Assembly: GCA_016839425.1 (NCBI GenBank)
Contig: JAEOUI010000212.1
Coordinates: 1-10,165 of the forward strand
DNA: 10,165 nucleotides
From: Promethearchaeota archaeon
Lineage (GTDB): Archaea; Asgardarchaeota; Lokiarchaeia; Sigynarchaeales; SOKP01
Direction: 5' to 3'
Both the position numbers and the translations under genes were made by a program. The notes under the pieces were generated by a model that was given only the letters and a program-made list of their open reading frames with translations, was not told the origin of the DNA and searched no databases. Below are positions 685 through 10,033 of this stretch, piece by piece (the stretch's first letter is position 1; the number at the start of each line of letters is the position of its first letter).

Positions 685-1656
685 CTAATAATTAATGGAT
701 TTTATCTTTTTTTTTAACTCTCCCACGGTTGTTTTCATTTCGGAATATACATTGTGAGGGTGAATCGATTCGAAGCTTTCGATTTTAAATACGACCTTAA
801 AATTATCTTCTAAATCCTTGAAATCTTCCAAGATTTTAAAGCGAAAATTCTTAGCCATTTCTCTGACGACATCTTCAGAAAATAAGGGCTTTAAATGAGC
901 ATATCGTACTAATTCAGCCTCTTCAGGTCTTTTTAAGACGGATTGGATCCTTCCGCTCATACTTTCTTCGATCACATCTATTACATCGAGAACATCTATC
1001 CCATGACTGTTTAAGTCTTTTATTTGCATTATTATTGTACCCTTGGATCTTTGATTGTGCGAAGAAAAGGGTAGTAGATTGATTAATTTTTTTATATCGC
1101 CTTCGGAAACATCAATGTCTTTCCTGTTTTTTATCAGCTCTTCGGCGAATTCTTGGGACATTTCGCGTGCACAAGGACACACGGTCATGCCTACTGCACT
1201 GGCTCCAATAAAATAGTTATAATCAACTTTACCAGCTTCGTCTTTATGAGCTTTTACAAAAGAACTGATATCATAAGCTTTTTGGATGTTTCTATGTGAA
1301 TTTTCCCTGACTTGTACGATAATTTTTCCTTCGAGCTTAACTTCTACTTTAGTGGTATAAGGATGTTTTTCCAATAAAGACTTGACAATTCTATCGCCAA
1401 CGACTTCTATCGTTGGAGTTGGTTGAAAAATCACATCGTTTATGATCTCTTCTATTGTTTCCGAGGTTCTTGACATGTGAATTCCACGCTGTTGAGCTGG
1501 AAGAGAAATCAATGCTGAAATTTTAGGATAAAACGAGTAGTGCTTGTTTTTATGAACAACATCAACCTTCTTTTCTACATTCACTATTCCTACTTTATCG
1601 ATGGCGATGTCGACCAAGCTTCCAGAATCTTGCAAGTCCTTTTTAAATTCGTACAT
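685..1656 (-). CDS. mptA: GTP cyclohydrolase IV (MptA/FolE2 family)
   Basis: This cytosolic Fe(II)-dependent enzyme converts GTP to 7,8-dihydroneopterin 2',3'-cyclic phosphate, the first step of archaeal methanopterin or folate-type pterin synthesis. The 323 residues match the usual family length. Family motifs are clear: LPAQQRGIHMSR at residues 52-63, VGMTVCPCA at 155-163 with the conserved Cys pair 160/162, HNQR at 200-203, YAHLKPLFSEDVVREM from 252, and ESIHPHN near 296-302. The ATG at 1656 gives a natural family N-terminus. No Shine-Dalgarno is visible, and a TATA-like stretch on the minus strand about 30-38 bases upstream would fit a leaderless transcript. That stretch overlaps a 9-bp inverted repeat (1687-1717) that could be an operator. 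It is divergent from the amidohydrolase gene. The assignment is secure; which final pterin is made is not shown by the sequence. Confidence 0.95.
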   Translation of the reverse strand: MYEFKKDLQDSGSLVDIAIDKVGIVNVEKKVDVVHKNKHYSFYPKISALISLPAQQRGIHMSRTSETIEEIINDVIFQPTPTIEVVGDRIVKSLLEKHPYTTKVEVKLEGKIIVQVRENSHRNIQKAYDISSFVKAHKDEAGKVDYNYFIGASAVGMTVCPCAREMSQEFAEELIKNRKDIDVSEGDIKKLINLLPFSSHNQRSKGTIIMQIKDLNSHGIDVLDVIDVIEESMSGRIQSVLKRPEEAELVRYAHLKPLFSEDVVREMAKNFRFKILEDFKDLEDNFKVVFKIESFESIHPHNVYSEMKTTVGELKKKIKSINY

Positions 1657-1900: not shown

Positions 1901-3073
1901 ATGTCCTATAAGACACTCTACTTTAAATACGGCTTTATCGGAGAGGATTTGGAACTAAAGCAAGACATTCAAATTGAAATCGACGAAACTGGAAGGATTA
2001 ATGATTTAAACTTTAAAGACATTGAATCACAAATCGTACGAGAAAAATTAATCGTACCGGGTTTTATAAATTCTCACATTCACATTGGAGATAGTTTTGC
2101 AAAAGAAAAAGGATATAACAAACAACTTAAAGATGTGGTGGCACCTCCAAAAGGATTAAAACATGTGCTCTTATCCAAAGTTAACAATTTGACAAAAAAA
2201 AATGGCGTTCAACATGCTGCTCTTGAACTTATTTCCAATGGAATTACATACTTTATTGATTTTCGAGAAGAGGGAGAGATGGGAGTCATGTTATTAAAAG
2301 ACGCCTTAAAAGAAATGCCTATCAAATATTTAATATTCGGTAGATATGTAAATTTGGACGATATAGAAACTATATTTGATATAGCTGACGGAATTGGATT
2401 ATCTAGCTACAAAAATAGATCAGTTAAAGAAAAAGACATTTTAAAAGATTTCAAGAAAAAAACAGGCAAGCAAGTAGCGAGCCATTGTGCTGAAGCCGTT
2501 AGAAACGAAAATGTAATACGCAAAATCCTCGAAGATCAACTAGTTGATATTATTGTTCACGGAACTAAGCTATTAAAAAAAGATCTTGAATTAATTCAAA
2601 AAAAAAAGATCTCGCTAATCATTTGTCCAAGGTGTAATGGTTATTTTGGCCTTGGTTTTCCACCCTTAATTGATATTATAAATTTAAAAATCCCAATAGC
2701 TGTTGGAACTGATAATATCATGGCAAATAGTCCTGATTTATTTGAGGAATTACGTTATCTATATCGAATAGTAAGAATTTTAGGTAATAAAACAGAATCA
2801 GGTCTTTTAACAGCAATAGATTTGTTGAAAATGATAACTATTAATCCCGCAAGAATTTTTGGAATGGATTTAAACATTGGGTCCATTTCGAAAGGAAAAA
2901 AAGCGGATTTTTTTGTAATTGATTTGGAGGATCCTAATTATCATTGCCAATTAAACGCCGAGATTGTCCCCACATTAATAGTTCAAAGAACAGGATCTCA
3001 AAATATCAAACAAGTATTTATCGATGGAAAACTTGTTTTCGAACGGAATTCTTATGGAACATTTTATAGCTAA
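1901..3073 (+). CDS. Amidohydrolase-superfamily deaminase (TRZ/ATZ, cytosine/SAH-deaminase-like)
   Basis: This is a 390-residue metal-dependent TIM-barrel hydrolase of the group that deaminates nucleobases and related rings. The whole metal site is present: HIH at 59-61 after PGF, HCAE with His195 and catalytic-type Glu198, His220 in VHG, and Asp271 in GTDN. The C-terminal NPARIFGM (from 315) and GSISKGKKADF (327-337) complete the composite beta-sandwich typical of the family. The distinctive APPKGLKH (81-88) and FREEG (121-125) may define its subfamily. The ATG at 1901 follows a good TATA box. The gene is divergent from mptA and lies 137 bases before arfC-cofG-cofH with a T7 run between. Substrate is not shown. 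The context suggests either the diaminopyrimidine of the ArfC pathway or 5'-deoxyadenosine/S-adenosylhomocysteine made by nearby radical-SAM enzymes. The family call is firm and the substrate is inference. Confidence 0.85.
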   Translation: MSYKTLYFKYGFIGEDLELKQDIQIEIDETGRINDLNFKDIESQIVREKLIVPGFINSHIHIGDSFAKEKGYNKQLKDVVAPPKGLKHVLLSKVNNLTKKNGVQHAALELISNGITYFIDFREEGEMGVMLLKDALKEMPIKYLIFGRYVNLDDIETIFDIADGIGLSSYKNRSVKEKDILKDFKKKTGKQVASHCAEAVRNENVIRKILEDQLVDIIVHGTKLLKKDLELIQKKKISLIICPRCNGYFGLGFPPLIDIINLKIPIAVGTDNIMANSPDLFEELRYLYRIVRILGNKTESGLLTAIDLLKMITINPARIFGMDLNIGSISKGKKADFFVIDLEDPNYHCQLNAEIVPTLIVQRTGSQNIKQVFIDGKLVFERNSYGTFYS

Positions 3074-3084
3074 TTATATTTCTA

Positions 3085-3091
3085 TTTTTTT
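3085..3091 (+). terminator. Poly-T tract after the amidohydrolase gene
   Basis: A run of seven T begins 12 bases after the stop codon in T-rich sequence, the usual form of an archaeal intrinsic terminator. It suggests that arfC-cofG-cofH has its own promoter. A weak TATA-like ATAATAAAT near 3175-3183 sits at the right distance for the TTG start at 3211. Confidence 0.4.
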
Positions 3092-3210
3092 GATTTGGAA
3101 TTTTAAATGCATAGAAGAAAGGAATTTCTAAATTAATTGGATGATATTTTTATCCATTCTTTCCTTATACGAGATAATAAATTAGAAATTATTCAAAACA
3201 CTTGATATAA

Positions 3211-3882
3211 TTGGTAAAACCTTATATTATTTTAAGCGCCGCAATGACCATTGATGGGAAAATTGCTTCTAAAACGGGAGATCCCGAATTATCAGACGAG
3301 CAAGATTGGCAAGAAGTTCATAAACTTCGCACCGAAGTCGATGCCATCATGGTCGGAAAGGGCACTATCCTCAAGGACGATCCGAAGCTCCACATCAAGT
3401 TTTACGACCATTCTGGCTATTATCGATTAATTATTGATAGTAATTTATCAATACCACTAACATCTAAAGTGATTAAATTTCAACCTAATACTTATCCAAC
3501 AATTATCTGCACGACGGAGAATGTTTCTGAAGAAAAAATAAAGATATTTGAATCCAATAAAGTCAAGATTATTAAAGCTGGAACTGGTGCGCAAGTTGAT
3601 CTATTAAAATTAATGCCCGCTTTATTCAAATTAGGGATCAAATCGATTCTATTAGAGGGAGGGGGAACGCTGAACTGGAGCTTTATAAAAAACGACTTAA
3701 TTGATGATATTAGACTAACAGTTGCTCCGTGGATTGTTGGCGGAAAAGACGCCATTAGTCTAGTCGAGGGCAATGGATTTGATAAAATGATTGGAGCACC
3801 ACGATTTAGATTAAAAAGCGTTAGTTCAAGAAATAATTATGTAATATTAAAATATACTAATAGTAAGTACGATGATAAATAA
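3211..3882 (+). CDS. arfC: 2,5-diamino-6-(ribosylamino)-4(3H)-pyrimidinone 5'-phosphate reductase
   Basis: This RibD reductase-domain protein uses NAD(P)H to reduce the ribosyl side chain of the diaminopyrimidine phosphate to ribityl, on the archaeal route to riboflavin and Fo. At 223 residues it has the stand-alone archaeal size and no RibD deaminase domain. Motifs seen: AAMTIDGKIA (10-19), VGKGTILKDDP (48-58), LLEGGGTLNWSF (147-158) and VAPWIVGGKDA (171-181). The start is TTG at 3211, directly after an in-frame TAA. The next in-frame ATG (3244) would cut into the AAMTIDGKIA motif, so TTG is strongly favoured. There is no clear Shine-Dalgarno. Its last 11 bases overlap cofG, so the two are very probably co-transcribed and translationally coupled. 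This fits its product feeding the Fo branch after deamination and dephosphorylation. Confidence 0.92.
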   Translation: MVKPYIILSAAMTIDGKIASKTGDPELSDEQDWQEVHKLRTEVDAIMVGKGTILKDDPKLHIKFYDHSGYYRLIIDSNLSIPLTSKVIKFQPNTYPTIICTTENVSEEKIKIFESNKVKIIKAGTGAQVDLLKLMPALFKLGIKSILLEGGGTLNWSFIKNDLIDDIRLTVAPWIVGGKDAISLVEGNGFDKMIGAPRFRLKSVSSRNNYVILKYTNSKYDDK

Positions 3883-4972
3883 CACTCTCAGCAAGTTCAA
3901 ATCTCTTTCCTTTAAAGACATAAAGGAGCAAGTCGCAAGCATTAAAGCACAACTTCCAGAGGAACGGAGGAATATTATCACATACTCAAGAAATTTCACT
4001 TTATCTCTCTCCAACTATTGCGAAAACCAATGTGGTTATTGCTTTTTTAATTATAAAATTCCAAAAATTAATGGTGAAGGAAACATCGTCGTGTTGGATA
4101 ACGAGAGAATGGTAACCTTAATCCAACAGGCTTTACATTATAATTGCAAGGAAGCACTTCTTATCTCAGGAGAAAGACCAGATAATTTTTCAGAAGTTAA
4201 AGAAAAATTGGAACAAATGGGTTGTAGCGATTTCATAGAATTCGTCAAGGATATTTGTACTTACTTAATTGATTTTAACCTCTTACCCCATACAAACATT
4301 GGTCTCTTGTCTTACAACGAGATGCGAGATTTAAAAAATTTCAACGCAAGCATGGGACTCATGTTAGAGAGCACGAGCCCAAGACTCTTTCAAAAAGATG
4401 GTGTGCACGAGTTTTCTCCCGGAAAAAATCCAGAAAAGAGAATAGAACACATCAAAAACGCTGGAAAGCTGAAAATCCCGTTTACAACGGGTTTATTATT
4501 AGGGATTGGTGAGACTTTCGAAGAACGAATTAAAGACTTGATCCTTATCAAGCAGATTCACGAGGAATATGGACACATTCAAGAAGTTATCATTCAAAAT
4601 TTCGTTGAAAAGCGGAACATTCCATATAAACCAAGTGCACCTCTTGATATTAAGGAAATGCTTAAGATCGCAGGAATTGCAAAAATCATTTTTGAAAACG
4701 ACATATCCGTTCAAATTCCTCCCAATCTCGTGCCAGGGATGGAAAAAGATTTTATTGAAATGGGTATTGACGATTTTGGAGGAATATCGCCCTTTACTGA
4801 GGATTTAATTAATCCTTCTCAACCTTGGCCCCAAATAACGAGGTTAGAAAGCTCATGTGAGAAAATTGGACACAAATTAATCGAAAGGTTACCAATATAC
4901 GAGAAATTCATAAATAAACCAGACTTTTGTTCGGAAACTATTAAAAAAAAAATTAATAATATTATCTTATAA
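3872..4972 (+). CDS. cofG: 7,8-didemethyl-8-hydroxy-5-deazariboflavin (Fo) synthase subunit CofG
   Basis: This radical-SAM enzyme closes the deazaflavin ring, turning the CofH product into Fo, the F420 chromophore precursor. The 4Fe-4S site is Cys50-x3-Cys54-x2-Cys57 (CENQCGYC). CofG-specific stretches include EALLISGERP (94-103), NLLPHTN (136-142), ASMGLMLE (159-166), IPFTTGLLLGIGET (202-215), GHIQEVIIQNF (234-244), QIPPNL (281-286) and DDFGGISP (300-307). The 366 residues are normal for archaeal CofG. The ATG at 3872 lies inside the end of arfC. The stop codon is followed at once by the cofH ATG (TAAATG). The uninterrupted arfC-cofG-cofH order, with overlap and zero spacing, argues for one transcript making the Fo precursor and then Fo. 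In many bacteria CofG and CofH are fused as FbiC; here they are separate, as is usual in archaea. Confidence 0.95.
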   Translation: MINNTLSKFKSLSFKDIKEQVASIKAQLPEERRNIITYSRNFTLSLSNYCENQCGYCFFNYKIPKINGEGNIVVLDNERMVTLIQQALHYNCKEALLISGERPDNFSEVKEKLEQMGCSDFIEFVKDICTYLIDFNLLPHTNIGLLSYNEMRDLKNFNASMGLMLESTSPRLFQKDGVHEFSPGKNPEKRIEHIKNAGKLKIPFTTGLLLGIGETFEERIKDLILIKQIHEEYGHIQEVIIQNFVEKRNIPYKPSAPLDIKEMLKIAGIAKIIFENDISVQIPPNLVPGMEKDFIEMGIDDFGGISPFTEDLINPSQPWPQITRLESSCEKIGHKLIERLPIYEKFINKPDFCSETIKKKINNIIL

Positions 4973-6106
4973 ATGACAGTATCGCACCAGTTAATTGATC
5001 AAGCAAGGGCTAGCGTAAAGAAGATCCTATTATCTGCGTTAAGTGGAAACGAAATAAGTGCAAAAGAAGCTCTCAAGTTATTGAAAGTTAAAGGAAGTGA
5101 ATTACTCGCACTCCAAAACGCGGCAACAGAAATTTGCTCTGAAAAAAAGAAAAATATAGTTAGCTTTGTTGTAAACCGAAATATTAACTTTACAAACATT
5201 TGTGATCACGGATGCAAGTTCTGTTCTTATAGCGTTTCACGCGATTCTCCCAAAGCATATTTGTTATCCATCGATGAGATCAAGAAAAAAGTTCTTGAAG
5301 CCTTGGAATATAATTGCACAGAAGTTTGCGTGCAAGGAGGAATTAACAAAGAAGTAGATTTTGAATTTTATAAAACCATATTAAAAACTATTAAAAAAAT
5401 AAGTTCTAGCATTCACATTCATGCTTATTCACCAGAAGAAGTGTTTCAAATGGCGCTATTAAACGGAGATTCTATTGAAAGCACCCTTAAAGAACTTAAA
5501 AAAGCTGGATTGGATTCAATGCCTGGTACAGCAGCAGAGATATTAGTAGACGAGATCAGACGCATTATTTGTCCTTCCAAAATAAATACAGAACAATGGG
5601 TAGACATCGTTAAAACAGCCCATAAAATGGGCGTTCCAACCACATCAACTATGATGTATGGACATATCGAAGATCTTGAACACAGAATAGAACATCTTGA
5701 AATATTGAGGAACATACAAAAAGAAACGAAGGGTTTCACTGAATTCGTTCCATTAGTGTATATGAAGGATAATCCCTCATTATCCAAGTCAAAAAAACAT
5801 CCCTTGAAACCTCACCATTATATTGACGATTTTAAGCTTTACGCCGTCTCAAGGATCTTTTTCAACAATTATATTGAAAACATTCAATGCTCCTGGGTTA
5901 AATTAGGGCCAAAAATGGCACAGGAATCACTTAAGTACGGCGTAAACGATTTTTCGGGAACTTTAATGGAAGAAAACATTTCAAGAAGCGCAGGAGCAAA
6001 TTATGGCGAATATCTCCCTTCAAGTCAAATAATTGAAATTATTAAAAGCGCGGGAAAGAAACCTGCTCAAAGAGATACTCTGTATAATTTAATTGCTTTA
6101 TTTTAA
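4973..6106 (+). CDS. cofH: Fo synthase subunit CofH (5-amino-6-ribitylaminouracil--tyrosine 4-hydroxybenzyl transferase)
   Basis: This radical-SAM enzyme transfers the 4-hydroxybenzyl group of tyrosine to 5-amino-6-(D-ribitylamino)uracil; CofG then makes Fo. The cluster motif is Cys77-x3-Cys81-x2-Cys84 (CDHGCKFC) after NRNINFTN (68-75). Other family motifs are VQGGI (120-124), HAYSPEEV (150-157), GLDSMPGTAAEIL (179-191), TTSTMMYGH (223-231), EFVPLVYM (257-264) and GTLMEENISRSAGA (329-342). The menaquinone enzymes MqnC and MqnE are close relatives, but adjacency to cofG and the overall motif set favour CofH. The ATG directly follows the cofG stop, so it probably relies on translational coupling. 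Length (377) is normal. No strong T-run follows immediately; the next T-rich stretch is about 120 bases downstream. Confidence 0.94.
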   Translation: MTVSHQLIDQARASVKKILLSALSGNEISAKEALKLLKVKGSELLALQNAATEICSEKKKNIVSFVVNRNINFTNICDHGCKFCSYSVSRDSPKAYLLSIDEIKKKVLEALEYNCTEVCVQGGINKEVDFEFYKTILKTIKKISSSIHIHAYSPEEVFQMALLNGDSIESTLKELKKAGLDSMPGTAAEILVDEIRRIICPSKINTEQWVDIVKTAHKMGVPTTSTMMYGHIEDLEHRIEHLEILRNIQKETKGFTEFVPLVYMKDNPSLSKSKKHPLKPHHYIDDFKLYAVSRIFFNNYIENIQCSWVKLGPKMAQESLKYGVNDFSGTLMEENISRSAGANYGEYLPSSQIIEIIKSAGKKPAQRDTLYNLIALF

Positions 6107-6364: not shown

Positions 6365-6880
6365 ATGAAGCTCTCCGAAGTGATTCATCTAAAAAGAACG
6401 AAGAGACTCGCAAGAAAGCGGAACAATTGGATTCACGACTTTTTTCACAAGATCTCGAAACTCGTCGTGAATTACTGTGTTACTCACGATTTTGGAACGG
6501 TCGTTATCGGGTACAATCCCTCTTGGAAGCAAGGAGTTAACATCGGACGGAGAAACAACCAGAATTTCGTTCAATTGCTGTTTCTCAAGCTTGTGAGGCA
6601 GATCGCCTACAAGGCCGAGTTGGTTGGGATTGAACTCGTGATGGTGGAAGAATCGTTCACATCCAAGTGCAGTTTCTTGGACGGGGAGCCAATTAAGAGG
6701 CACAATAGTTATAAAGGCAGGCGCGCCTGCCGTGGCCTGTTTCGGTCGATCGAGGGCATGTTTATCAACGCAGACGTGAATGCTGGCTATAACATCCTGA
6801 AAAAAGCATTCCCGAATACCATTTCGGTCGACGGGATAGAAGGCTCCGGGTTGAGCCCATATTCGATTGCCCTTTGTTGA
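6365..6880 (+). pseudogene. TnpB-family (IS200/IS605, IS1341-type) nuclease remnant, C-terminal half only
   Basis: The 171 residues match the C-terminal part of transposon-encoded RNA-guided TnpB proteins, which are usually 370-450 residues. Recognisable are the Arg/Lys-rich helix (HLKRTKRLARKRNNWIHDF, 8-26), VVIGYNPSWKQ (46-56), NNQNF (64-68), VEESFTSKCSFLDGE (94-108), KGRRACRGLFR (117-127) and INADVNAGYNI (134-144). The N-terminal half, with the RNA/DNA-binding domains and the RuvC-I aspartate, is missing. An in-frame TGA immediately precedes the ATG. Instead of the common CxxC-CxxC zinc finger it has the SFLD version with unpaired Cys102 and Cys122. It is clearly richer in GC than its AT-rich neighbours, which suggests later arrival. 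No TnpA transposase, clear element end or guide RNA was recognised. It is most likely a decaying fragment, although the reading frame is intact over its whole length. Confidence 0.85.
6716..6731. repeat. Perfect 16-bp GC palindrome inside the TnpB remnant
   Basis: GGCAGGCGCGCCTGCC equals its own reverse complement. It lies over the codons for KGRRAC in the TnpB fragment, just where other TnpBs carry the zinc finger. It is far more GC-rich than the rest of the window. It may reflect only the Arg codons of the conserved motif, or form a strong structure in the mRNA or in any overlapping non-coding RNA. Confidence 0.6.
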
Positions 6881-7713: not shown

Positions 7714-8355
7714 TTATTCGGGTAATTTCCGATGATGTAGCAATTTAAAAGCAATTCCAGGACCCATTCCCTGATTGTAGGCAAGTTCGATCCATAACAT
7801 TGCAACAGGCTCTAGCAATCTTGCGTTTTTCAACGGCCCACAATCTACGACTTCAAATCCAATCAATTCTCCTAATTTTTTTGCCTTCGATTTTGCTTGG
7901 GTATCGTCACCACATGTAAAGAGACTTGGTTTTGGTGTTCTTTGCTTTACTTCTAGAAGAAATTCGGGATCGAATGCACCCAAACCTTTCACTACTTTAG
8001 CACCTGAAGCCCATCCTTGAATTTTTTCAGCAGCTGAAGTTGTATGACCAATCAATAACCCACCTAAGTTCGGTGCAACGGCGTTTATCACATCTATAAT
8101 TATTTTTCCTCCAAGATCACCTAAAGAAGAAATCGTTTCTTCAACAGTTGACCATGGAATAGCAAGAACCACTATCTCTCCAAATTCTGAAGCTTCTTTA
8201 TATGTACCTGTTTTTATATTTCCATTAATGGATTCTGCTAACTTACTTGCTTTGGAGGCATCACTTGAGCCTAAAAAGACTTCCTGTCCATTTTCAGCCC
8301 AAATCTTTCCTAAACTCGTCCCAACTTTACCCGTTCCAATAATACCTATTTTCAC
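7714..8355 (-). CDS. F420-dependent NADP reductase family oxidoreductase (Fno/NpdG-like, COG2085 type)
   Basis: Fno moves hydride between reduced F420 and NADP+. This 213-residue protein opens with the Rossmann motif GIIGTGKVG (4-12), followed by EVFLGSSDASKA (25-36), IVVLAIPWSTVEE and the strand KIIIDVIN. The C-terminal stretch GPLKNARLLEPVAMLWIELAY and GPGIAFKLL is typical of this family, including bacterial dinucleotide-binding members without proven F420 use. In Fno the GSR after the second strand contacts the NADP 2'-phosphate; here it is GSS-D (29-32), so cofactor preference is uncertain. The start is GTG at 8355, because the codon before it is an in-frame TAG. A weak TATA-like TTTTAAAC lies about 26 bases upstream, compatible with a leaderless mRNA. 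F420 genes nearby favour an F420-linked role without proving it. Confidence 0.8.
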   Translation of the reverse strand: MKIGIIGTGKVGTSLGKIWAENGQEVFLGSSDASKASKLAESINGNIKTGTYKEASEFGEIVVLAIPWSTVEETISSLGDLGGKIIIDVINAVAPNLGGLLIGHTTSAAEKIQGWASGAKVVKGLGAFDPEFLLEVKQRTPKPSLFTCGDDTQAKSKAKKLGELIGFEVVDCGPLKNARLLEPVAMLWIELAYNQGMGPGIAFKLLHHRKLPE

Positions 8356-8452: not shown

Positions 8453-10033
8453 TCATCTATCTTGATTGTAAGGTTTTCCTGATGATAAACAAAATTCTGC
8501 CATTTTCAATTCGCGCCCTAAATAGTTCGCATGATAAATATCAGTCGTTAATTCCATTTCTAAAATTTTTTTACTTAATGATTCTGCGTCTTGTCCTATT
8601 AAAGAATATTTTAATTCGTGTTGGTTAGAATAGAATAAGACATATATGCATTCATCATACTGATTTACATATATCTTGAAATATCCTTTTTCATCTGCTA
8701 AATAATTTTTATTAACTTTGTTAATCGAAATTGAGTTTTTTTTTTCAATTTTGGGAAGTAAAGAATTAATTTTTCCCTTTGCGCAAAAATAATCAATACC
8801 TACATTAATCGGAGGGACTTTTTTGGATCTTGAAAGATATGATAATTTTACGCATTTTTTAAGCTCCCGCACGCCACGCATTAATTTTGAGCTATGCTCC
8901 ACGGTAAACAATACACCAACATTTAATTCAATCGCAATCGTCGCAAGAAGGGCGTTTATTCCGATGGAATCCACATCCATGAGTTCTACTACATTAGAAA
9001 CTCCAAAAAAAAGAGGCAATTCTAATTCCTTATTATTTTCCTCGGAAATTGTCTTGATATAGAGAAAATAAGATTCTAGTGATTGGCAAATTCCAGGTGC
9101 CAATGGAGATTCTAATAACGGATCTGCGATGAGTTTAGTAAATCCTTGATTTTTTAATATCCTTGTAAGTTCAAGCAATCTCTTAACTCGTTCGGTCGGA
9201 TCTTTAGGAAAATATCCTTCTCTTATATTAGTTGGAAGAATAACAAGAGCAATATCTCTTGGGAGGCGTAACAATTCACCATAATTTCCAAAATCAACGC
9301 TTAATACAAGATCAATACCTGCTTCAGAAGCCGTAAGAATTTCGTCAGGATCCATTGAATCAACGCTTAAAAGAATTTCAAATTCTCTTCGAAGTAACGA
9401 AATTATTTCCTTAACTCGGAGGGGATTTGGTTTATTTGAAATGCACCCTATATCAATAATACTTGCACCAGATTTGATGTAATGTCGTGCTTTTTTTAAG
9501 ATATCTTCATCGTTTTTTTCAGTGGAATTTACGATTTCGGCAATGATGGGCGGAGGAAGCCCAATGCCAATCATAATATTCGAACGATTTTGATTAATAT
9601 AGAATGTTGTTTGTCCAATATTTTTTTTAGCTTGATTAATTGCATCTTTTACAATTTCATTATACTGTTCTTTACCTGATGTTTCATAAAGCCTATTTGC
9701 AGCGATTGAACTTGATAATTCAATTGAATCCAAGTTTTTGATTATCACGGGAATGTCTGAGGCAAATTCTGGGCCTTTCCTGATTCTAACCGAATATTTT
9801 TTTTCTAAATGAGATGTGTCCCATTGAACAAATCCAGGAATGAGTATGAGATCAAACTCTTGTAAATAATTAGACTTAATTATTTCTTCAGTCATCTCTT
9901 CTGATAAGAAGGCAGAAACTGAAATAGGAGCAACAGAAATGGTAATTTCGTGATTTTGAATTGACTTTACAATATCTTCTACGATGGCTTGGCTTTGTTC
10001 TCCGGTTATGATTAAAAGTTTAATGTAAATCAC
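8453..10033 (-). CDS. Archaeal dihydropteroate synthase-related protein
   Basis: This 526-residue cytosolic protein is of the archaeal DHPS-related type. Residues 1 to about 145 form an extra N-terminal alpha/beta domain (KLLIITGEQ at the start). About 150-420 form a pterin-binding TIM barrel with GASIIDIGCISNKPNP (189-204, matching DHPS GxxIIDIGGESTRPG), SVDSMDPDE (223-231), IADPLLESP (302-310), FFGVSN (342-347) and INALLATIA (359-367). About 100 further residues follow. The ESTRPG and SRK signatures of classical DHPS are altered, so para-aminobenzoate chemistry cannot be assumed; a role in archaeal pterin synthesis is likely but not proven. The GTG at 10033 lies inside the last codons of the upstream gene, with a 14-base overlap, indicating translational coupling. 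The Fno-like gene follows after 97 bases on the same strand. The shared theme with mptA is pterins. Confidence 0.88.
   Translation of the reverse strand: MIYIKLLIITGEQSQAIVEDIVKSIQNHEITISVAPISVSAFLSEEMTEEIIKSNYLQEFDLILIPGFVQWDTSHLEKKYSVRIRKGPEFASDIPVIIKNLDSIELSSSIAANRLYETSGKEQYNEIVKDAINQAKKNIGQTTFYINQNRSNIMIGIGLPPPIIAEIVNSTEKNDEDILKKARHYIKSGASIIDIGCISNKPNPLRVKEIISLLRREFEILLSVDSMDPDEILTASEAGIDLVLSVDFGNYGELLRLPRDIALVILPTNIREGYFPKDPTERVKRLLELTRILKNQGFTKLIADPLLESPLAPGICQSLESYFLYIKTISEENNKELELPLFFGVSNVVELMDVDSIGINALLATIAIELNVGVLFTVEHSSKLMRGVRELKKCVKLSYLSRSKKVPPINVGIDYFCAKGKINSLLPKIEKKNSISINKVNKNYLADEKGYFKIYVNQYDECIYVLFYSNQHELKYSLIGQDAESLSKKILEMELTTDIYHANYLGRELKMAEFCLSSGKPYNQDR

Follow-up and report, generated by a model that had tools for sequence, protein, structure and literature searches.

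For the riboflavin pathway of archaea, the part of a 2021 survey considered here (PMC8305020) reports three gaps and offers candidates for two of them. In its Table 6, HVO_2483, which is 34% identical to MJ0699, is given as a riboflavin-pathway prediction credited to Rodionova et al. 2017, and the row stands between arfC and the phosphatase gap (EC 3.1.3.104). The position of this row suggests that it represents the deaminase step, which is not named in that part of the survey. A gap in the early archaeal riboflavin steps also appears in the portion of a 2024 survey considered here, where it concerns GTP conversion rather than deamination (PMC11459464). As described in part of another paper, experiments have shown that BrbF, a member of the creatininase family, acts as a deformylase in Sinorhizobium meliloti (PMC9478397). 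Here, we analysed a stretch of 10,165 nucleotides from a Promethearchaeota archaeon (contig JAEOUI010000212.1 of assembly GCA_016839425.1), called the window, in which a gene encoding a protein of the amidohydrolase superfamily lies upstream of arfC.

We consider it probable, at about 0.86, that archaea use this amidohydrolase as the deaminase in the pathway common to riboflavin and F420, in the form of a metal-dependent C2 deaminase that acts on the ArfC product and is non-homologous to RibD. From the presence of the gene, its metal-site residues, predicted fold and neighbourhood, its co-occurrence with ArfC, its absence beside RibD and a subfamily signature, we infer which reaction it catalyses, on which substrate, that it acts after ArfC, and the role of every residue. 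The substrate would be the ArfC product, 2,5-diamino-6-ribitylamino-4(3H)-pyrimidinone 5'-phosphate, and removal of its 2-amino group would give 5-amino-6-ribitylaminouracil 5'-phosphate, which after dephosphorylation would supply CofH for F420 and lumazine synthase for riboflavin. The chemistry may be a guanine- or isocytosine-type C2 deamination via metal-bound water, with the metal held by H59, H61, H195 and D271 and the site completed by E198 and H220. The phosphate and the 4-oxo pyrimidine might be read by the subfamily-specific residues K87, E123, R244 and N272, with R122 and R148 contributing in most members. It is also likely that in most archaea an amidohydrolase-fold enzyme replaces the cytidine-deaminase-fold domain of RibD, that lineages gaining bacterial RibD lost it, and that a single gene family supplies the missing archaeal step in Asgard archaea, haloarchaea and crenarchaea alike, even below 25% identity.

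Sequence and predicted fold of the amidohydrolase

The open reading frame at positions 1901..3073 on the forward strand encodes 390 amino acids and belongs to the amidohydrolase superfamily (Amidohydro_1, PF01979, 150.4 bits, cut-off 25). In Pfam, at E-values up to 0.01, it matched Amidohydro_1 and Amidohydro_3 only and no cytidine-deaminase-like domain, and no RibD model was among the best 25 of its 57 NCBIfam matches. The nearest protein whose source is named comes from a Lokiarchaeota genome assembly and has 70% identity; identity is 33% to a haloarchaeal member and 32% to a methanobacterial member. The residues H59, H61, H195, E198, H220 and D271 were invariant in all 28 rows of alignment A3, which includes the window protein, and likewise across the 107 subfamily members in a larger alignment. 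They lie in the HxH metal motif (residues 59-61, positions 2075..2083), in the HxxE motif (residues 195-198, positions 2483..2494), which by analogy would provide a metal ligand and the catalytic glutamate, at H220, and in the GTDNxM motif (residues 269-274, positions 2705..2722), which carries both D271 of the metal site and N272. The predicted fold resembles adenosine, guanine and isocytosine deaminases, and the nearest folds to the predicted structure are those of deaminases and triazine hydrolases.

The arfC gene follows at positions 3211..3882 on the same strand, 137 bp downstream. It has a TTG start and encodes a pyrimidinone 5'-phosphate reductase of 223 amino acids (TIGR01508, 197.3 bits, cut-off 186.45). 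The RibD model TIGR00326 aligns to this protein from model position 141 only, and ArfC of the window therefore has no deaminase domain. A first-pass annotation of the window had described an ArfC that lacks the RibD deaminase domain, an amidohydrolase gene just upstream of arfC, cofG and cofH, and a complete deaminase-type metal site in its product. The coordinates of the open reading frames, the family models and the alignments bear out these three descriptions.

Subfamily signature

The larger alignment contained 127 rows (125 distinct), of which 107 were subfamily members (87 in the main group, 9 in group II and 11 in group III) and 20 were paralogs. Groups II and III hold weaker matches from Thermoproteota, 9 of the 15 and 11 of the 18 having been aligned. 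The paralogs were drawn from two of the phyla and chosen as long frames with lower scores. D64, K87 and N272 were present in all 107 subfamily rows, E123 and R244 in 106 and R363 in 105, and each was absent from all 20 paralogs, in columns that had been picked because they are conserved in the subfamily. K87, at which all 20 paralogs have a gap, belongs to the APPKGLKH motif (residues 81-88, positions 2141..2164), E123 to the DFRE motif (residues 120-123, positions 2258..2269) and R244 to the CPRxN motif (residues 242-246, positions 2624..2638). R122 and R148 show almost no variation within the main group, unlike in group III. In a tree of 75 rows, a branch with 100/100 support and a length of 1.11, the longest inner branch printed, set the 20 paralogs apart; this separation is partly expected, because the paralogs were selected as long, lower-scoring frames.

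Co-occurrence with ArfC and RibD

The phylogenetic profile covered 613 genomes in five samples, one for the phylum around each of five centre genomes, from whose records the phylum names were taken; all were queried with alignment A3 and TIGR00326, and the completeness filter requested was 90% (80% for Asgard archaea). The gene was found in 402 of the 430 genomes with ArfC only (379 by strict scores), in none of the 34 with RibD over the cut-off and in 4 of the 149 others. All 34 RibD genomes were among the 120 Thermoplasmatota, where the gene was missing from each of them at E-values up to 1e-35 and present in 76 of the 77 ArfC-only genomes (74 without two weak matches; p 9e-28, the p-values here ignoring kinship between genomes and being a rough guide only). 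The RibD matches in this phylum all begin at model position 1, and those of G329, G364 and G370 are partial.

The 119 Asgard genomes had no RibD over the cut-off and 57 had ArfC. The gene (at least 193 bits) occurred in 51 of them, all with ArfC, which was immediately downstream in 47 (p 3e-27). Among 151 Thermoproteota, RibD was absent and ArfC was present in 74; the gene scored at least 200 bits in 42, all of which had ArfC (Fisher p 2e-17), and adding 18 weaker matches (119-166 bits), hand-picked for their shorter frames, brought it to 59 of the 74. None of the 127 Halobacteriota had RibD, and 126 were ArfC-only. Of these 126, 119 had the gene with a score of at least 178 bits and four more at 162-173 bits; G489, G490 and G518 had no clear gene call. 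G450 had the gene as well, together with a RibD/ArfC-type match that was weak and unlisted. All 96 Methanobacteriota had an ArfC-type match, none had RibD over the cut-off, and 93 had the gene, 92 at 334 bits or more and one as a cut fragment of 212 bits, with other matches at 172 bits at most.

Deaminase-like matches were also considered as a separate cytidine-deaminase-type enzyme for this step. They occurred in 9 of 36 genomes at no more than 46 bits, compared with RibD scores above 250 bits in 32 of the 34 Thermoplasmatota genomes, and this candidate was rejected. The Asgard genomes G574, G550 and G568 have RibD-type deaminase-domain matches of 60-80 bits in frames of 359-540 amino acids, and no ArfC match at E-values up to 1e-10. 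In the Halobacteriota sample, five genomes (G026, G441, G466, G481 and G491) have two copies of the family each, both above 329 bits.

Gene neighbourhood

The neighbourhood was compared in 78 loci, taken from a scan of a genome collection with an alignment of Loki and haloarchaeal sequences; they derive from the 80 highest-ranking of at least 581 confirmed places and are thus a top slice. In 50 of the 78 loci, arfC lies immediately downstream on the same strand, which excludes chance adjacency, and another 4 have it at a different place no more than about 2.3 kb away. The other 24 loci had no arfC match within the available stretch, several stretches being short. These belong to methanogens, anaerobic methanotrophic archaea (ANME) and related Euryarchaeota, haloarchaea, Altiarchaeota, one member of the Thermoplasmata and two bacteria. 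The amidohydrolase and arfC genes overlap by 4 bp in 16 of the 18 Loki-type loci; cofG comes next in all 18, and cofH follows in 17, L009 ending first.

Genes within 7 kb of the amidohydrolase were clustered in 80 loci, which were the 78 and two plasmid loci, and clusters were named from one to four scanned members each. An ArfA-like GTP cyclohydrolase was found in 32 of these loci (211-305 bits, under the model cut-off of 306), lumazine synthase in 29, RibB in 27 and riboflavin synthase RibE in 21; five carry a creatininase-family gene and four archaeal RibC. The order ribE-ribB-ribH-arfA-amidohydrolase-arfC recurs in the Nitrososphaeria loci L028, L058 and L079, and ribB-ribC-ribH-arfA-amidohydrolase in the divergent Thermoproteota loci L090, L091, L093, L094 and L096. 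In the more divergent L097, the order is arfC-arfA-ribB-ribC-ribH-amidohydrolase, and the opposite strand carries a creatininase-family gene. Because ArfA, a deformylase candidate, ArfC, RibB, RibH and riboflavin synthase are accounted for in these loci, deamination and dephosphorylation are the remaining steps. Of the two, the amidohydrolase fold fits deamination.

In the window, mptA, encoding the GTP cyclohydrolase MptA, is the divergent neighbour of the amidohydrolase gene (positions 685..1656, reverse strand; TIGR00294, 252.2 bits, cut-off 220), and mptA is nearby in 16 of the 18 Loki-type loci. Downstream of arfC, on the forward strand, are cofG, encoding FO synthase subunit 1 (positions 3872..4972; TIGR03550, 376.4 bits, cut-off 213.35), and cofH, encoding subunit 2 (positions 4973..6106; TIGR03551, 457.6 bits, cut-off 374.1). 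Between cofH and an ABM-domain gene, positions 6365-6880 hold a TnpB/OrfB-like fragment of 171 amino acids with a Cas12f1-like TNB domain (39 bits), which is likely to be a mobile-element remnant. An NpdG-like gene at 7714-8355 (79.9 bits, cut-off 149.8) has a counterpart among the Loki-type loci only in L004. A dihydropteroate-synthase-like gene at 8453-10033 (TIGR00284, with DUF4346) recurs in 14 of the 18.

In the Halobacteriota loci L134-L140, the amidohydrolase is followed by two genes, one for a Usp protein and one encoding four CBS domains, as annotated in L134 and L138 and judged by size and place in the others; in L134-L137 and L140 they separate the amidohydrolase from arfC. In L145 of Thermoplasmatota, a four-CBS gene also comes after the amidohydrolase. 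Such genes may have a nucleotide-sensing function close to the pathway. In several Halobacteriota, the missing phosphatase was sought among the genes that intervene between amidohydrolase and arfC, and this idea was dropped, the annotated ones being the Usp gene and the four-CBS-domain gene. A plasmid search returned 226 records, the best of them haloarchaeal with 27-30% identity, and two of these were added to broaden the alignment. Halobacterium salinarum R1 has a homologue (L001, 5944-6963) on its plasmid PHS3, within a region that also holds genes for metal transport and gas vesicles. Viral contigs scanned with two peptide patterns gave no relative.

Discussion

The first-pass annotation regarded the amidohydrolase as a good candidate for the archaeal pyrimidine deaminase, and our comparisons of sequences and predicted structures support that view through the neighbourhood, the profile, the subfamily signature and the predicted fold. 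It had suggested structure prediction, and the fold obtained resembles those of deaminases. It had also suggested checking whether the neighbourhood is conserved and how the subfamily with the APPKGLKH motif is distributed relative to arfC, ribH and cofH in archaea lacking RibD deaminase domains; arfC is directly downstream in 50 of 78 loci, K87 of the motif separates all subfamily rows from all 20 sampled paralogs, and the profile against ArfC and RibD gave 402 of 430 ArfC-only genomes and 0 of 34 RibD genomes. The outcomes that it had named as contrary to the proposal included two that concern gene distribution. Absence of the subfamily from most archaea that make riboflavin or F420 did not occur, as the same counts indicate, and a RibD-type deaminase alongside it was found over the cut-off in 0 of 119 Asgard genomes, a sample that does not contain the genome of the window itself.

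Several observations weigh against assigning the subfamily to this step. No clear copy was found in 28 of the 430 ArfC-only genomes (15 Thermoproteota, 1 Thermoplasmatota, 3 Halobacteriota, 6 Asgard archaea and 3 Methanobacteriota), and the gene occurs without an ArfC match in three archaeal genomes (G204, G369 and G371), a fourth, G450, having a weak RibD/ArfC-type match. In one Methanobacteriota genome, a RibD-deaminase-like frame (G057:C9:1514-1954; 66 bits, 156 amino acids, one internal stop) occurs beside the amidohydrolase and ArfC. Genomes within a phylum are not independent, and co-occurrence in Methanobacteriota and Halobacteriota says little, because nearly every genome there has both genes. 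The exclusion of RibD could reflect a wholesale swap to the bacterial pathway and not the deaminase step alone. Two bacterial homologues, L040 and L053, carry all six signature residues; L040 adjoins ABC permeases, L053 adjoins dehydrogenase, FGGY kinase and DeoC genes, and no ArfC or RibD match was found in their genomes. Because the signature is found in these other gene contexts, it marks the subfamily and not the pathway, and some members may have other substrates.

The gene lies directly 3' of arfA in many loci and amides are cleavable by amidohydrolases, so that the protein might instead perform the ArfB step, hydrolysing the formamide of the ArfA product and not the 2-amino group. Such a deformylase would likewise agree with the exclusion of RibD in Thermoplasmatota, if those genomes use bacterial GTP cyclohydrolase II. 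This is nevertheless very unlikely, given that a creatininase-family gene lies in the same gene run in L020, L022, L029 and L044 (after arfC) and in L051 of Altiarchaeota (directly 3' of the amidohydrolase), and adjacent on the other strand in L097. The creatininase family includes the shown S. meliloti deformylase, according to the part of that paper considered (PMC9478397); four scanned genes of this family match NCBIfam ArfB weakly (28-40 bits, cut-off 180). The nearest folds of the window protein, deaminases and triazine hydrolases, also point away from a deformylase.

A nucleoside deaminase of the 5'-deoxyadenosine, S-adenosylhomocysteine (SAH) or guanine type, placed in the operon by happenstance, would agree with the best solved-structure matches by sequence and fold, which are atrazine chlorohydrolase, adenosine/SAH-type deaminases and guanine deaminase. 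However, the 20 paralogs that resemble this type in length and score form the separate clade described above, without any of the six signature residues, and many genomes carry both a paralog and a subfamily gene; we regard this explanation as even more doubtful than a deformylase. The least probable of the three is an enzyme of pterin or tetrahydromethanopterin synthesis tied to the divergent mptA. The gene mptA is close in 16 of the 18 Loki-type loci and in L031, but none of the remaining 59 among the 60 non-Loki loci has an mptA match in its available stretch, some stretches being short, and riboflavin genes recur there.

NF005552, also known as PRK07213 'chlorohydrolase', matched in 10 of 14 control genomes, including Methanocaldococcus jannaschii and Haloferax volcanii, and exceeded its cut-off in two of the 14. 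This result is compatible with MJ0699 being a member of the amidohydrolase family of the window protein. A published prediction for this pathway probably covers that family already, and the candidate is probably not new. The first-pass annotation held that this step is not generally assigned in archaea; this stands in that no proven enzyme was found, but HVO_2483/MJ0699 had been predicted directly after ArfC, as the part of the 2021 survey considered here indicates (PMC8305020). A literature search limited to titles and abstract openings, with most subscription journals uncovered, returned no assay of this deaminase. The novelty is modest; what is of value is that the evidence is strong, specific and open to testing. 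The five-phylum profile, the RibD exclusion and the residue signature turn the prediction into one that can be assayed directly, and a positive assay would allow databases to rename proteins now labelled chlorohydrolase or amidohydrolase.

Among known systems, NF005552/PRK07213 is the best family match of the window protein and the nearest NCBIfam model, nearly full length (residues 13-375), but the score of 257.7 bits is under the curated cut-off of 294, and the name carries no tested function here. The 5'-deoxyadenosine/SAH deaminase family (PRK07228 and kin) shares the superfamily and the metal site with the window protein, which scores 86.4 bits against a cut-off of 522 and lies outside the clade of the sampled paralogs that look like this type, which lack D64, K87, E123, R244, N272 and R363. 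Guanine deaminase and the isocytosine deaminase Vcz are 15-21% identical to the window protein and act on different substrates. The deaminase domain of RibD and fungal Rib2 carries out the same pathway reaction as that proposed for the window amidohydrolase, and has a cytidine-deaminase-like fold unrelated to the amidohydrolase fold; in Thermoplasmatota, the two do not meet in any of the 34 genomes with RibD over the cut-off.
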